A stretch of 64,000 nt of DNA from a virus (IMGVR_UViG_3300026292_000003:62001-126000), one strand, 5' to 3'; positions 19,451 through 25,510 are shown, counted from the stretch's first letter. Numbers and translations: made by a program. The notes: generated from the letters alone by a model not told the origin.

Positions 19451-20812
19451 CTACAAGTAGAGTCTCCAGTATCCTGCATTATAGATTCCTTCATAACTGT
19501 TAACCCATTCTGTTCCGTTCCATTCTAATTGATCACTACTTGATAAGTTTGTAACGTATTGTGTATCGGATACTGTACTGCTATCAAAACTAACATTCCA
19601 AGATGAACCGTTGTATTCAATAATGTCATATTTGTTAGCAACTAATCCGCTCCAAGTTGGTGTTGATGGAATAGGATTGATTAATATATAACGTTGTCCT
19701 ATTGCTGAACTAGGAACTGTCCCGTCCCCTGGGTAATTAATTGATGGATCTAAAATAGCATTTACTGCTGATAATGTATTTGTAGGTAAAGTTGAAGTAT
19801 CAATGTCTACAGTTAATAAGTTAGGATTACTTGGGTGTTCATCTAAACGTCCAATAATATCTTCATCTTTAGCTCCTGGGTCTTTTGATTTTCTAAGTCT
19901 TAATTGACTTATTCCAGGTCTTAATACACCAAATGGAGTAAGTTCTTTAGTCCATTCTAAAACGTTTCCGTCATCATCTAAATTACTTCCGTTGGTATTT
20001 AATAGCTGAAGGTCATTGTTCTCATATTTTACTTTTCTGTTTTCATATGTTACAACTGTATATTGTAACGTTTCGTTATTAAATGGTTGTTCAGCTTTAA
20101 ATAGATCTAAGTTTTCATCATCCAAGTTATAAAGTTCACTAATGATTGTGTGAATTAATTTTTGTTGTTTAACCTTTGCAGGAGGATTTATATAAACTGG
20201 TATATCAAATGACATTGTAGCAACATCAATAATATCGTCAATACTTGATCCAACACTTCTTGTACTCCAAGTAGTATTAGTAAGTTCTACGTGAGATAAT
20301 GCAGTCCAGTCTAATGGACTAGCATTTGTTCTAATATCTAATGTAGGATTAAATAAAACAAGCATCTGTTCTAGTAACTGTAATTTTTGATCTGTATTTG
20401 ATGTCCATACGTCTGCGTTCATTTGCATTAAGTATGGAACAGGAGCATGACGCTCTACAGTATAACTATTACCTTTTTCGTTTTTATATTCTCCAGTAGT
20501 TTGGTCGTATTTCTTTTCGTATACCTGAACTTTATCGACATGATCTTGGTAAGTACGTCTTTCAGGTATTAAATTTAAATTAGTTACATAACAACTTATA
20601 AATGGAACAGTATTCATAATGTTTTCACTGTTCTCTCTTGTTATGTGAGCCGCCATTCTGTTTATGTCACCATAACGTACTGGAACTTTATGATATACTG
20701 GAAGACCAGAATCTTCATTTTTGCCCATTTGTACACTGAAGCCACTAAACAATCTTATAAATTGTTGAATGTATCTTCTTATTTGTTTATCATAAAAGTA
20801 TTGTTGGCTCAT
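19451..20812 (-). CDS. 15: Tail sheath stabiliser and completion protein gp15
   Basis: A 453-residue protein whose N-terminus (YFYDKQIRRYIQQFIRLFSGF, then VPVRYGD) parallels T4 gp15 (YFYNSSFRRY..., VPITYAS), and whose SSIDDIIDVATMSFDIPVYINPP block matches the T4 segment ending in WMYPP. T4 gp15 (272 residues) caps the sheath and joins the tail to the neck. This version is 180 residues longer; the extra C-terminus carries two YNGSSW/WNGTEW segments like those in the sheath of this phage. It overlaps gp14 by 4 nt on the minus strand. Confidence 0.8.
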   Translation of the reverse strand: MSQQYFYDKQIRRYIQQFIRLFSGFSVQMGKNEDSGLPVYHKVPVRYGDINRMAAHITRENSENIMNTVPFISCYVTNLNLIPERRTYQDHVDKVQVYEKKYDQTTGEYKNEKGNSYTVERHAPVPYLMQMNADVWTSNTDQKLQLLEQMLVLFNPTLDIRTNASPLDWTALSHVELTNTTWSTRSVGSSIDDIIDVATMSFDIPVYINPPAKVKQQKLIHTIISELYNLDDENLDLFKAEQPFNNETLQYTVVTYENRKVKYENNDLQLLNTNGSNLDDDGNVLEWTKELTPFGVLRPGISQLRLRKSKDPGAKDEDIIGRLDEHPSNPNLLTVDIDTSTLPTNTLSAVNAILDPSINYPGDGTVPSSAIGQRYILINPIPSTPTWSGLVANKYDIIEYNGSSWNVSFDSSTVSDTQYVTNLSSSDQLEWNGTEWVNSYEGIYNAGYWRLYL

Positions 20813-21879
20813 TTTTTGAAATCACTTTTTGGTTTAATAACTTGAGATAGAGGCTGACGTTCTGGAAATTCCTGATCGTCAATAATTGTTGTAGCCTTGT
20901 TATTGATAAAGCTACTAGCATTATAAGTTCTATCACTCCAAGTTTGTTCAGTGACATTATCATATAGTCTATGCCACTTACTTCCACGCCTTACAAATAA
21001 TCTATTAGGCGTAAAGTCTGTTCTAATAAAGTATTCACCTTCTTTCGGGTTAGCTGGAAACTGGTCACCTTGTTGTAAAGTTTCACCATGTTTGTATTCG
21101 CTGTCAACTTCTTCTTGACCAAATAAATGTTCTGCAAGTGGTAAACCTAATGGATCAGCTTCTTCGGCACTTTTCACAATAGCATTACTAATATTAAGTT
21201 CTGTTTTATAAGCACTAACTTTATTTTTAAGGCTATCTGGATCTTTAGCACTACCAAGTATATCTTTGTATTCTTGTGTATCTGTTAATGGTGCTACTTT
21301 AATTCTCCAAATGTGTGGGTACCAAGTTTGTGAAAATCCTTCACTACCCCTTGCGGCATCTTGAACTACATAAAACTTATTAATAGCATCTCTATCGTTG
21401 CTTAATAATAGTTCATCTCTAAGGTGAGGTAATTCAATAACATCTCCTGGCATTAATCTTCTACCAAGTCTTTCTACCATATCGTTTATATGAAAAGATA
21501 TAAACAAAGTATCGTTAGTTAAAAATAAACCAAATTGAGTTAAGTCAAAGTCGTTATCACTAACGTTATACACGCCACGAAGTTCAAAAATATCAGGATC
21601 ATATTTACGATCTCTGTTTTCCATAAACAGTAAGTCTTGTATGTTAGTTTCATCAATTATACCTTCTGGATTTACTTCTTCACTTGTTACATTATCTATT
21701 TCCATACCACTGCCGTAGTTCGGCTCGCTAGGATCATTGTTGCCTTGTTGAGGTTGTGGACCCAAATACTTGTGAACGTGTATAGCCGTACCGCCTATAT
21801 CGAACTGTTCTCGTATAGTTCTGTCCATGAATTTGTAATCATTACCTTTATAAGGCTTATATAGTGTAAAACGTGGCAT
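20809..21879 (-). CDS. 14: Neck protein gp14
   Basis: A 356-residue protein upstream of gp15 on the same strand. Its RTIREQFDIGGTAIHVHKYL opening and the LMPGDVIELPHLRDELL...INKFYVVQDAARGSEGFS...PHIWRIKVAPL core fit T4-like gp14, which forms the neck ring with gp13 (T4: 256 residues). Residues 275-305 contain an inserted PKEGEYFIRTDFTPNRLFVRRGSKWHRL module resembling the GDxW repeats of the sheath. Its late promoter is on the minus strand at 21901-21907. Confidence 0.75.
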   Translation of the reverse strand: MPRFTLYKPYKGNDYKFMDRTIREQFDIGGTAIHVHKYLGPQPQQGNNDPSEPNYGSGMEIDNVTSEEVNPEGIIDETNIQDLLFMENRDRKYDPDIFELRGVYNVSDNDFDLTQFGLFLTNDTLFISFHINDMVERLGRRLMPGDVIELPHLRDELLLSNDRDAINKFYVVQDAARGSEGFSQTWYPHIWRIKVAPLTDTQEYKDILGSAKDPDSLKNKVSAYKTELNISNAIVKSAEEADPLGLPLAEHLFGQEEVDSEYKHGETLQQGDQFPANPKEGEYFIRTDFTPNRLFVRRGSKWHRLYDNVTEQTWSDRTYNASSFINNKATTIIDDQEFPERQPLSQVIKPKSDFKK

Positions 21880-21900: not shown

Positions 21901-21907
21901 TATTTAT
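21901..21907 (-). promoter_or_regulatory. Late promoter, gp14-gp15-Nudix unit
   Basis: On the minus strand this reads GCATAAATA, with the core 22 nt before the gp14 ATG. It is divergent from the plus-strand late promoter at 21934. Confidence 0.65.
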
Positions 21908-21933: not shown

Positions 21934-21940
21934 ATAAATA
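21934..21940 (+). promoter_or_regulatory. Late promoter of the transporter-halogenase operon
   Basis: GGATAAATATTA, 32 nt before ATG 21973, with an AAGGAA Shine-Dalgarno between. The distance also argues that the transporter starts at 21973. Confidence 0.65.
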
Positions 21941-21972
21941 TTATATACTCACATAATATAAGGAATCACAAT

Positions 21973-22941
21973 ATGTTTAGATTTTATACAGAAAGAAAAT
22001 GGGCGTTATGGGCTTGGTTAGGTTCAGCAATCATTTTATCATCTTTATGGGTTCAAGTAAAAATTGACGTTAAAATCAATGAATGGTTTGGTCAGTTTTA
22101 CGATATGATCCAAAAAGCACTGGCTACACCTAATGCAATTACCATAGGTGAATACTGGGCCAGTTTATTATCTTTTATTACACTAGCAGGAATATATGTA
22201 GCACTAGCAGTAGCAATAAGTTTCTTTACAGCTCACTTCTTGTTTAGATGGAGAACTGCAATGGTAGAATGGTATCATGCAGTTTATGATAGAGCAAGAA
22301 AAATAGAAGGAGCGGCACAAAGGGTACAAGAAGATACTATAAAATTCTCTAGAATAATGGAATCACTTGGTACAAGTTTAATTGAATCAATTATGGTTCT
22401 TGTGCAGTTTGTTCCAATCTTGTTAGGACTATCAATAGGTATACCAATATTCTTTTTTGGTGATTGGCAATATGGATTAGTTACGGGTGCTATTATTTGG
22501 TCCGTAGGTGGTACATTATTTTTAATTGCATTAGGTTGGTTACTAAGATTAGTTGGCGTTGAATATGACTTGCAAAAGAAAGAAGCCGCTTATCGTAAAA
22601 TACTTGTTATAGCAGAAGATGACGATAACGTCAGACCTAAAACAATAAATGAGTTATTTGATGATGTTAGGAAAATTCATTTCTTATCATATATTAAATA
22701 TCTTTATTTTAATATTGGTCGTATTGCTTATTTACAAGCAAACGTTTTAAGTGCCTACGTATTTCTTGCACCAGCCATTGTAGCAGGCGTTGTTACATTA
22801 GGTGTGATGCAACAAATAATTAGAGCATTTGGTCGTGTAGAAGGAAGTATGCAATACTTACTTAAAGCATGGCCTACAATTATTGAATTAATGAGTGTAT
22901 ATAGACGTTTAAGAGAGTTTGAAAAACAGATTACTAAATAA
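21973..22941 (+). CDS. sbmA: SbmA/BacA-family peptide transporter
   Basis: A 322-residue inner-membrane protein with clear similarity to E. coli SbmA and rhizobial BacA: KINEWFGQFYDMIQKAL, FRWRTAMVEWY, the family hallmark IEGAAQRVQEDTIKF near residue 117, YGLVTGAIIWSV, EAAYRKILVIAEDD, YFNIGRIAYLQ and VEGSMQYLLKAWPTIIELMSVYRRLREFE. SbmA/BacA are proton-driven homodimers that import peptides such as microcin B17 and proline-rich antimicrobial peptides. About 80 residues, the first membrane segment of E. coli SbmA (406 residues), are missing, yet promoter and Shine-Dalgarno fix this start. Some six hydrophobic segments remain. It heads an operon with rpiB and a halogenase. A phage-borne copy is unusual. 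Confidence 0.88.
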   Translation: MFRFYTERKWALWAWLGSAIILSSLWVQVKIDVKINEWFGQFYDMIQKALATPNAITIGEYWASLLSFITLAGIYVALAVAISFFTAHFLFRWRTAMVEWYHAVYDRARKIEGAAQRVQEDTIKFSRIMESLGTSLIESIMVLVQFVPILLGLSIGIPIFFFGDWQYGLVTGAIIWSVGGTLFLIALGWLLRLVGVEYDLQKKEAAYRKILVIAEDDDNVRPKTINELFDDVRKIHFLSYIKYLYFNIGRIAYLQANVLSAYVFLAPAIVAGVVTLGVMQQIIRAFGRVEGSMQYLLKAWPTIIELMSVYRRLREFEKQITK

Positions 22942-22958
22942 TCATAGAGGAGAGATTT

Positions 22959-23453
22959 ATGAAATCAGTTCAATTACAAGTAGCTTCAGACCATAGAGGT
23001 ATGGAGTTAAAAGATCAATTATCAAATTGGTTAACACCTGTTGACGAAGATGTACCTACTAAATTTGGTATAGATTTATTTCACGATATAGGAATTTACG
23101 ATGATAAGAAAAAAGTAGACTATCCTCGAATAGTACAAATGTTCTGTAAGGATATATCTACTCCTGATAAAGTAACTGCAGGTTGGACAGTATACAATAA
23201 AGGAATACTTATTTGTGGATCTGGCTATGGAGTTTCTATAGCGGCCAACAGGCATCCATATGTTAGAGCAGTAGTTTGTAGAACTGCTAAAGAAGCAGAG
23301 ATGTCACGTAAACACAATGATGCTAATGTACTATGTTTAGGTGCTGACTTTACATCATTAAACCAAGCAAAGAAAATATGCGAAGCATTTTTTACTACTG
23401 ACTTTGAAGGTGGAAGACACTTGAAAAGAATAAAAAGTATAAGCACATACTAA
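22959..23453 (+). CDS. rpiB: Ribose-5-phosphate isomerase B
   Basis: A 164-residue RpiB/LacAB-family enzyme interconverting ribulose 5-phosphate and ribose 5-phosphate. SDHRG supplies the phosphate/substrate Asp-His, GILICGSGYGVSIAANR the catalytic Cys loop, and SRKHNDANVL the ring-opening His; FEGGRHLKRIKSIS is the usual C-terminus. An insert of about 15 residues after residue 20 (DEDVPTKFGIDLFHD) is not in E. coli RpiB (149 residues). It has its own AGGAGA site. In a phage, this would draw pentose-phosphate carbon towards PRPP and nucleotides. It follows the transporter by 17 nt. Confidence 0.88.
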   Translation: MKSVQLQVASDHRGMELKDQLSNWLTPVDEDVPTKFGIDLFHDIGIYDDKKKVDYPRIVQMFCKDISTPDKVTAGWTVYNKGILICGSGYGVSIAANRHPYVRAVVCRTAKEAEMSRKHNDANVLCLGADFTSLNQAKKICEAFFTTDFEGGRHLKRIKSISTY

Positions 23454-23454
23454 T

Positions 23455-23826
23455 ATGATATTAATATTATTAACAACTTTTTTATTATGGGCTATATTAG
23501 TTTATATAACTTATTCTGCAACCGGGTTAACACGTGTACGAGAAGTGTACACAATGTGGTTCGATAAACAATATTGGAAAAAAAGATATAATGTTGTTGA
23601 AGCACTAGCCTGGAGCGGAAAGTTATTAGTTATATTGCCTGCTATATTCTTTGGGTATGAAGTATGGTGGGCTCATATAATTACACTAGCAACATCTGCT
23701 CTTTTAATATGGGTTAGTGAACAAAAACTATTACCTACTCTTTTAGCATTTAATACATTATGGATAGGTATAAGTTCATATATATTAGTTAGATACTTTT
23801 ATACAAATTATTGGATGATACAATGA
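23455..23826 (+). CDS. Small integral membrane protein
   Basis: A 123-residue protein with three to four hydrophobic helices (ILILLTTFLLWAILVYITYSA; AWSGKLLVILPAIFFGYEVWWAHIITLATSALLIWV; LLAFNTLWIGISSYILV). No family recognised. It lies between rpiB and the halogenase, starting 1 nt after rpiB and overlapping the halogenase ATG (ATGA). Its place in the operon suggests a role with the transporter, but this is only inference. Confidence 0.7.
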   Translation: MILILLTTFLLWAILVYITYSATGLTRVREVYTMWFDKQYWKKRYNVVEALAWSGKLLVILPAIFFGYEVWWAHIITLATSALLIWVSEQKLLPTLLAFNTLWIGISSYILVRYFYTNYWMIQ

Positions 23827-25031
23827 AGATATGCATAATTGGTGGCGGAACAGCCGGTTGGTGGTGTGCAGGTTATATGGAAAAGTTTTTACCTGACGCA
23901 GAACTAACACTTATAGAAAGTGATCAAATTCCTACAATAGGAGTAGGAGAAGGAACACTTCCACAGATTGGTGTATTTTTTGAAGAACTAGGCATTCCAG
24001 AAAAAGAATGGATGGATGGTTGTAATGCAGTTCACAAATATGGTAACATAAAATATGAATGGGATGAACTTGGTGCAGATCCATACTTAATGACATTCTG
24101 GCAAAACGAACCAAAGTCATTATTTAATGATTGGTATCAACAATACAAGCAAGGTAAAAAAGTTAGAGATGATATTAATCCAGACTTATATGATAAAGAA
24201 GGTTGGAGAGCAGTAGCATATCATTTAGATGCTAATCTTGCAGGACACGTTGTACGTGATCATTGTAAACGTGTTAATCATGTTATTGATACATTAGAAG
24301 AACTTCCTCCAGGATATGACTTATATGTAGATGCTACAGGATTTCGCAGACAGTTTGTAAAAGATAAAACTGAAGAAACATTTAGTGAACATCATAAAGT
24401 TAATCGTTCTTGGGTTAGACCATTAGAGTTAGAAGATGAAATTACACCATATACAAGAACACTAGCTAGACCTGACGGTTGGCAGTTTATGGTAGACTTA
24501 CAACATAGAACAGGAACAGGTTATGTTTTTAGTACTGATTTTGTAAGTGAAGAAGAAGCATTAGAAAAGTTTAAAGGATGGACTGCACATAGAACTCCTT
24601 TTAAAGGTATAGAACCACGACTACTAAAATGGAAACCTGGAGTATTAAAGAATCCTTGGGTAGACAATGTAGTCTCTATTGGACTAGGTCAAGGATTTGT
24701 AGATCCATTAGAAGCAAATGGATTATTTTTAGTGCAATACAGTATTACGTTATTAGTAAGATGTATACTAAAAGGTTCATCACCAAAAGCATATAATAAG
24801 GCAATAATGAAAGTACAAAAAGATAATTCAGACTACATATTACATCACTATATGTTAAGTGATCGTACAGATACTGAATTTTGGAAATACTATAGTAAGT
24901 TTGATGCAAGTAAAACTCTATGGGAAAGCTATACAAAGAATTCTAACAAGTATACTAGTCTATATCCTGATGCAATATGGGCATCTTTGGGCTTATATTT
25001 TGACAATTTTAAGCATTATCCAGGAAAATAA
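23823..25031 (+). CDS. Flavin-dependent (tryptophan-type) halogenase
   Basis: A 402-residue FAD enzyme. The start is the ATGA overlap at 23823. IIGGGTAGWWCAGYM is the tryptophan-halogenase form of the dinucleotide motif; GVGEGTLPQIGVFFEELGI and AVHKYGNIKYEW hold the flavin loop and the candidate catalytic Lys. The conserved WxWxIP is replaced by WQFMVDL, which loses the second Trp and the Ile-Pro, followed by the normal RTGTGYVFS. FVDPLEANGLFLVQ is a family C-terminal block. It is shorter than PrnA-type enzymes (about 500-540 residues). A cyanophage halogenase that can iodinate aromatic substrates (VirX1) is known, so a phage origin is plausible. Natural substrate unknown. Confidence 0.85.
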   Translation: MKICIIGGGTAGWWCAGYMEKFLPDAELTLIESDQIPTIGVGEGTLPQIGVFFEELGIPEKEWMDGCNAVHKYGNIKYEWDELGADPYLMTFWQNEPKSLFNDWYQQYKQGKKVRDDINPDLYDKEGWRAVAYHLDANLAGHVVRDHCKRVNHVIDTLEELPPGYDLYVDATGFRRQFVKDKTEETFSEHHKVNRSWVRPLELEDEITPYTRTLARPDGWQFMVDLQHRTGTGYVFSTDFVSEEEALEKFKGWTAHRTPFKGIEPRLLKWKPGVLKNPWVDNVVSIGLGQGFVDPLEANGLFLVQYSITLLVRCILKGSSPKAYNKAIMKVQKDNSDYILHHYMLSDRTDTEFWKYYSKFDASKTLWESYTKNSNKYTSLYPDAIWASLGLYFDNFKHYPGK

Positions 25032-25156: not shown

Positions 25157-25510
25157 ATGATGAAATATAAACTTTTTCAAATCCACGTTACAAAAGCAGA
25201 GCATGATAAAATTAATGCTGAAGGTCACGATTCTGTAGAAAAGCATAAACTTAAACTTGATATGTCTTTCGCTAGAGATAAAACTTCATCGATTGCTAAA
25301 GAAGCATTTGATAAAGGTTATTACACACACGTTTCAAATATTACAACTGAAAAAGGTCTTGAAGGTGTATTTGAAGTAGGTAATATTGGTCCAGAAGAAA
25401 ATATTGAAAGACTTCACCCTATGTATTCAACTTCAGTAGGTGATATTGTTGTTGATCCTGAAGGCAACAAACACGTTGTTGCTAGTTATGGTTTCCAAGA
25501 GGTAGAATAA
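25157..25510 (+). CDS. Conserved hypothetical protein
   Basis: A 117-residue protein. The C-terminal half, GNIGPEENIERLHPMYSTSVGDIVVDPEGNKHVVASYGFQ, resembles the small beta domain found in YodL-like phage and plasmid proteins, where SVGDIV and a final aromatic/hydrophobic strand are conserved. No catalytic residues are evident. A sigma70-type promoter and good Shine-Dalgarno indicate early or middle expression. It overlaps the next gene by 1 nt. Confidence 0.65.
   Translation: MMKYKLFQIHVTKAEHDKINAEGHDSVEKHKLKLDMSFARDKTSSIAKEAFDKGYYTHVSNITTEKGLEGVFEVGNIGPEENIERLHPMYSTSVGDIVVDPEGNKHVVASYGFQEVE

Follow-up and report, generated by a model that had tools for sequence, protein, structure and literature searches.

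An SbmA-type transporter gene and its interchangeable neighbours in a predicted late operon of marine jumbo T4-like phages

The analysed stretch, 64,000 nucleotides of viral DNA (IMGVR_UViG_3300026292_000003:62001-126000) and called the window in the following, holds four genes on the plus strand behind one T4-type late promoter core (ATAAATA, 21934..21940, plus strand), namely those of an SbmA/BacA-like transporter (21973..22941, 322 aa), of ribose-5-phosphate isomerase B, RpiB (22959..23453, 164 aa), of a small membrane protein (23455..23826, 123 aa) and of a flavin-dependent halogenase (23823..25031, ATG at 23823 and stop at 25031, 402 aa). The core lies 39 nt before the start of the transporter gene, the spacers are 17 nt between SbmA and RpiB and 1 nt between RpiB and the membrane protein, and the membrane protein and halogenase genes overlap in ATGA. 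This close packing and the four gene identities had been described in the first-pass annotation, and both are upheld, the latter by Pfam searches (SbmA_BacA, LacAB_rpiB and Trp_halogenase, the membrane protein having no family). The window's phage belongs to a clade of marine jumbo T4-like phages in which SbmA is a near-core gene, and RpiB, the membrane protein and the halogenase are interchangeable cargo.

A constant transporter and exchanged cargo

The slot that holds the four genes is bordered on the left by the gene of a virion structural protein (phrog_11591; 20809..21879, minus strand) and on the right, in most relatives, by a conserved gene (25157..25510, plus strand) without a match to any Pfam or PHROG family. 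Slot loci were collected by the left structural protein, to avoid sampling on SbmA; L numbers (L001, L092 and so on) are the labels of the compared loci, those of SAR11 and SAR116 being L170-L249. SbmA is present in the slot of 54 of the 64 contigs with enough sequence. The slots without it belong to one subgroup with two other genes and to another that is empty, with the right-hand gene (h435) following after 125 bp. Behind SbmA are found RpiB, membrane protein and halogenase; RpiB and halogenase; membrane protein and halogenase; halogenase alone; a hydroxylase, a flavin adenine dinucleotide (FAD) oxidase and a halogenase (L325); other genes; or nothing. The cassette of four genes proposed by the first-pass annotation is not supported as a fixed functional unit, since RpiB, the membrane protein and the halogenase come and go independently behind the constant SbmA, and all four were found together only in the window and in L001, which are identical at the protein level, other loci holding subsets. 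On the tree of the structural gene, the changes of state number one each for SbmA and RpiB, two for the halogenase and four for the membrane protein.

Pairs of related loci show how the cargo is replaced. Over 2.8 kb to the left of the slot L092 and L101 have about 99% identity, and to the right the identity is again about 99%. The stretch in which they differ is bounded by the stop codons of SbmA and of the halogenase; there one has the membrane protein and a halogenase 94% identical to that of the window, and the other a 60% identical halogenase. The window and L004 have close flanks (synonymous divergence, dS, 0.09 for the downstream gene h117), but their halogenases share only 58% identity, and the window has the membrane protein in addition. 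Conversely, the halogenases of the window and L039 are 96% identical (dS 0.61), with flanking genes that are far more distant (dS 1.3-1.5). These comparisons indicate that the membrane protein and the halogenase, whose genes overlap in ATGA, are the unit that moves.

All four genes are under purifying selection, with nonsynonymous over synonymous divergence (dN/dS) of 0.070/0.909 for SbmA, 0.021/0.608 for the halogenase, 0.181/0.923 for RpiB and 0.130/0.755 for the membrane protein; decayed passenger genes can be rejected, as all ratios are well below 1.

The layout in L325 (129-5923) is an operon of an ExbB-like channel, a partner with one transmembrane (TM) helix, a membrane protein, SbmA, an aspartyl/asparaginyl hydroxylase-like protein, an FAD oxidoreductase (DAO) and a halogenase, the genes of the last two overlapping, and it looks like a small oxidative pathway.

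The transporter and its cellular relatives

The transporter matches the Pfam family SbmA_BacA (PF05992) with E 1.3e-138 over 313 of 315 positions (2-314), and the structure of Escherichia coli SbmA (7p34) with E 3.1e-89. It is about 46% identical to E. coli SbmA over 317 residues, from E. coli residue 77 on, and the hallmark EGAAQRVQEDT and the matching blocks from which it had first been recognized are present, TM1-6 being aligned end to end. Residue 4 pairs with E. coli residue 77, so that about 73 N-terminal residues are absent; the short N-terminus that had been noted earlier thus stands, its extent is somewhat below the 80 residues then given, and it is shared by the chromosomal proteins of SAR11 and SAR116. 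The peripheral helices TM0a and TM0b were not found in the transporter and are also missing from the SAR11/SAR116 members and from the short subfamily NCBIfam NF009036, which makes their absence a mark of the subtype. NF009036 fits the full-length transporter with 427 bits (cut-off 385), and the canonical SbmA model NF008306 gives 368 bits, below its cut-off of 492; by these scores the protein is filed with the short SbmA subfamily and not with canonical SbmA.

The proton-conducting glutamate ladder of E. coli SbmA consists of E193, E203, E269, E276, E287 and E378, and loss of any of the six inactivates or severely impairs the protein (PMC13316013). In the alignment to E. coli SbmA all are kept in the phage, as E120, E130, E197, E204, E215 and E305 respectively, and the gate tyrosine Y368 corresponds to Y295. 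Since the whole ladder is kept, the phage protein is likely to be a working proton-driven importer. ABC (ATP-binding cassette) relatives of the YddA type are without equivalents of E203 and E287 (PMC13316013), and the presence of both therefore puts the phage protein on the side of the secondary transporters. Unlike BclA and YddA it has no attached nucleotide-binding domain, the 322-aa protein being followed directly by RpiB. The ABC family PF06472 matches with 1e-9 only, and an ABC transporter identity can be rejected. With E. coli SbmA and Sinorhizobium BacA (SLiPT; PDB 7p34 and 9g3d) the phage protein shares the TM1-6 alignment, the ladder, the Y368 gate and the EGAAQRVQEDT block; it differs from them in being without the N-terminal part, presumably that of TM0, in being phage-encoded and in being preceded by a late promoter.

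The nearest cellular proteins are the SbmA of SAR11, SAR116 and related uncultured Alphaproteobacteria, with 81-89% identity, which are of the short type (NF009036/PRK12369) and have the same length and the same N-terminus as the phage protein. A short chromosomal SbmA is found in 122 of the 147 sampled genomes of the SAR11 family. Truncation of SbmA by the phage can be rejected, the short form being present on the chromosomes of SAR11 and SAR116 too. The closest cellular genes sit in housekeeping neighbourhoods (SAR11/SAR116); in SAR11 sbmA is consistently flanked by a small complex I-like gene and by glpX, nhaA being close by (gene names from sequence inspection), and it is not accompanied by a halogenase or RpiB as in the phage. 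Phage and cell sequences interleave in the SbmA tree, where well-supported branches force at least two exchanges. By these comparisons the phage SbmA is host-derived, from SAR11/SAR116-like Alphaproteobacteria, and the host of the phage would then be alphaproteobacterial. For the terminase the closest matches (54.5%) come from jumbo Pseudomonas phages like PA5oct, and a placement among the relatives of the pelagimyophage HTVC008M was rejected, as terminase and tail sheath are both nearest to the jumbo phages PA5oct and Atu_ph07.

At least 207 contigs in IMG/VR match peptides of the window's SbmA, in several phage contexts, and a terminase like that of the window is carried by 9 of 16 tested SbmA contigs. 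In one further group (L065, L063, L060 and L072) a MotA/ExbB-like protein and, directly before SbmA, the adaptor ClpS are encoded, followed after SbmA by NifU, PaaD/MIP18-like, aldehyde dehydrogenase-like and ClpP proteins; ClpS and ClpP together with a peptide transporter hint at peptide or amino acid turnover. In another (L049, L052 and L069, 8001-16100 in the latter) SbmA is followed by an HtrA-like protease, a MoxR-like ATPase, an adenosine monophosphate (AMP)-ligase, a halogenase of 560 aa and a desaturase-like protein; this may be a biosynthetic cluster carried by a phage. The SbmA-bearing viral contig G012 (L073/L074; 109853 bases) has three separate proteins of the tryptophan-halogenase family within 14 kb. 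Only four records among 50,697 annotated phages match SbmA, and none is a genuine phage relative as far as could be judged. Two are Acinetobacter contigs with the look of a bacterial chromosome (threonine dehydratase, pepO and gatB around the one examined); the INPHARED record CAKLQH020000002.1 (L082), labelled Acinetobacter phage MD-2021a, has sbmA in such surroundings and may mislead surveys of auxiliary metabolic genes. The short unannotated Salmonella and Escherichia records are probably host DNA.

The cargo genes and the late promoter map

The halogenase matches Trp_halogenase with E 1.9e-70 and has the flavin motif GxGxxG at its N-terminus as GGGTAG. The catalytic residues K72 and E297 (K79 and E346 in PrnA) are kept and are invariant in 12 and 20 aligned sequences. 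In place of the WxWxIP motif stands WQFMVD, with F instead of the second W throughout the short phage clade. The motif is absent also in some true halogenases (PMC8407142, a review), so the family membership stands, and with WQFMVD tryptophan cannot be assumed to be the substrate. The AlphaFold model (pLDDT 87.9) has PrnA, RebH and VirX1 among its best structural matches (PrnA 4z44, E 5.2e-31; TM score on the query 0.83 for PrnA and RebH), and together with the catalytic residues it supports a bona fide member of the flavin-dependent halogenase family, which is presumably active. With VirX1 and the halogenases of cyanophages and pelagiphages (phrog_2928; HTVC008M and Syn10) it shares fold, family and the catalytic Lys and Glu, but it is only about 30% identical to them, has 402 residues against 531 in VirX1, has WQFMVD for WxWxIP and falls in a separate short clade. 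Compared with the tryptophan halogenases the protein is shorter by about 100 residues. In 337 sampled alphaproteobacterial genomes only full-length halogenases were found, with 30-39% identity, and the window's phage record contains no second halogenase and no 2-oxoglutarate (2OG) oxygenase (PF13640). The short type is also found without SbmA within 6 kb on either side (L093, L095-L098 and L104-L108). Where SbmA is missing nearby, the gene upstream of the short halogenase is often 2OG-Fe(II) oxygenase-like (L104, L107 and L108). The pelagiphage HTVC008M is similar in this respect; there the halogenase is located between a dioxygenase (phytanoyl-CoA dioxygenase) and the large terminase gene.

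RpiB, which is found as cargo only in the window's subclade, matches LacAB_rpiB (PF02502) with E 6.1e-41 and 4em8 with E 2e-24, and keeps the ICGSG and HNDANVL motifs of the catalytic Cys/His region; its score is below the strict TIGR01120 cut-off and above that for RpiB/LacA/LacB. It is about 41-46% identical to the RpiB of SAR11 and SAR116, an identity too low for a recent acquisition from these bacteria. The membrane protein is modelled as five helices (pLDDT 77.9), and neither structure nor profile comparison gave a match in the PDB. Its gene comes after that of a phosphoribosyl pyrophosphate synthetase in other phages, in L145 (4995-6363) also after an ammonium transporter-like gene, and here it adjoins RpiB; it may go with ribose phosphate metabolism.

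Exact matches to ATAAATA number 26 in the window, 25 of them on the plus strand like nearly all genes, and 22 are located at most 120 nt upstream of a same-strand gene start, against the 13% of positions expected. The motif is rarer than in shuffled sequence (26 versus 43), yet nearly all copies precede genes. The set forms, as judged from motif and context, a clean T4-type late promoter map of the phage and bears out the late promoter that had been assigned to the operon. The core is kept at the same site in 13 of 26 related loci, most others having CTAAATA. Expression of the operon late in infection is predicted on the basis of the promoter motif and its context. A divergent core (21901..21907, minus strand) at the left border of the slot precedes the structural genes 20809-21879 and 19451-20812 (both minus strand); those on this side include a tail sheath stabiliser and a virion protein. 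A hairpin with a U tail can be folded after the halogenase but is no better than in shuffled sequence, and a terminator is not claimed. A few genes downstream of the slot, at 28799-29437, a deoxynucleotide monophosphate kinase is encoded (PF21448, E 1.3e-10).

Interpretation of the slot

The reading that we favour, and consider reasonably probable, is that of a late-expressed cargo slot in marine jumbo T4-like phages, in which a constant host-derived SbmA-type transporter is followed by interchangeable metabolic genes. What is stable and undescribed is the transporter; the set of four genes is a local combination and not a fixed unit. We infer transport activity, the import direction, a peptide substrate and a benefit to the phage. 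The transporter would most likely be located in the inner membrane as a dimer, where the proton gradient would drive the import of peptides or peptide-like compounds in the late phase, during synthesis of the virion proteins. In hosts that already have such a transporter in use, import late in infection would thereby be raised at the time of greatest demand for amino acids. The role of RpiB would be to supply ribose-5-phosphate for nucleotide synthesis, and the pair of membrane protein and halogenase is exchanged as one piece. This resembles other auxiliary metabolic genes of marine T4-like phages, which are host-derived and found in late or variable regions, and among which RpiB and the halogenase fit, but the literature searched contained no case of a phage clade with a proton-driven peptide transporter among its near-core genes. 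Several points weigh against the proposal. Transport, expression and host are predictions from the genes, the host assignment coming from one gene family. The hosts usually have an SbmA of their own, which leaves the gain from a second copy unexplained. Even in E. coli it is not settled what SbmA naturally transports, so that nutrient import is one guess among several. The outer-membrane pore CsgG, reported in pelagimyophages and a conceivable partner in uptake, was not found in any of 11 records.

The transporter could instead import an indole-like or peptide-like compound modified by the halogenase, with RpiB and the membrane protein supporting the same pathway. The two genes are neighbours in five layouts of the slot, both are present on the same contigs in two further phage groups, and none of the 10 slots without SbmA carried a halogenase. 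Corrected for kinship, however, this association comes down to two independent contrasts on the tree, far too few to show a link; most halogenase-free slots with SbmA keep it intact, a 60% identical halogenase has been swapped in with SbmA unchanged, and the same halogenase type is found away from SbmA beside other oxygenase-like genes. Nothing in this analysis ties the substrate of the halogenase to the transporter, and a common pathway is decidedly unlikely. A role of the halogenase in virion assembly, acting on phage or host proteins with SbmA as an unrelated neighbour, would account for a late position among structural genes; the copy in the window stands under a late promoter in such surroundings, that of HTVC008M adjoins the large terminase gene, and the reduced length and altered WxWxIP block may leave the active site more open. 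Many metabolic genes of marine T4-like phages share the late position, though, no modified virion protein is known and the model superposes best on halogenases of free tryptophan, which makes this role improbable in our estimation.

An effect of the transporter on the physiology of the envelope, for example on the sensitivity to peptides of competitors or on the entry of other phages, is an unlikely explanation, in which the exchanged enzymes would be part of a fast-changing module for competition or superinfection. A membrane gene that stays constant where near-identical phages have recently exchanged the cargo is the trace expected from changing selection, and in other phages SbmA adjoins a MotA/ExbB-like channel, a partner with one TM helix and further membrane proteins. 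On the other side, T4-like phages commonly recombine at gene borders in the absence of such selection, plain metabolic enzymes such as RpiB are part of the cargo, which differs greatly among phages, and the slot yielded no gene for a toxin, for immunity or for a receptor. In support of the envelope effect, SbmA/BacA governs how bacteria cope with antimicrobial peptides (PMC12003926). In the boldest of these proposals, which we hold to be very improbable, the constant proton-driven transporter and the fast-exchanged halogenase and oxidase sets would combine uptake of peptides or peptide-like compounds by the infected cell with their chemical modification, as a weapon or shield against competing phages, bacteria or host defence; if true, such a module would act in the commonest bacteria of the ocean.

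No description of a phage SbmA was found in the openly licensed papers searched, which is not proof of its absence; the same literature held no paper on a phage SbmA beside a halogenase, in agreement with the first-pass annotation. Two surveys, of ocean viruses and of pelagimyophages, do not mention BacA or a halogenase. A survey from 2025 found SbmA/BacA mainly in Hyphomicrobiales and Enterobacterales, without mention of SAR11, SAR116 or phages (PMC12003926).

Work on SbmA/BacA has dealt with the entry of antimicrobial peptides into enteric and symbiotic bacteria; here its short form is found nearly throughout the SAR11 family, and several groups of marine phages have adopted it among their near-core genes. 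This makes two questions testable, namely which compounds free-living bacteria of the ocean import through a transporter that lacks TM0, and for what reason a phage needs more of this transporter in the late phase. The clean swap of membrane protein and halogenase between near-identical phages gives a natural handle on the role of phage halogenases.

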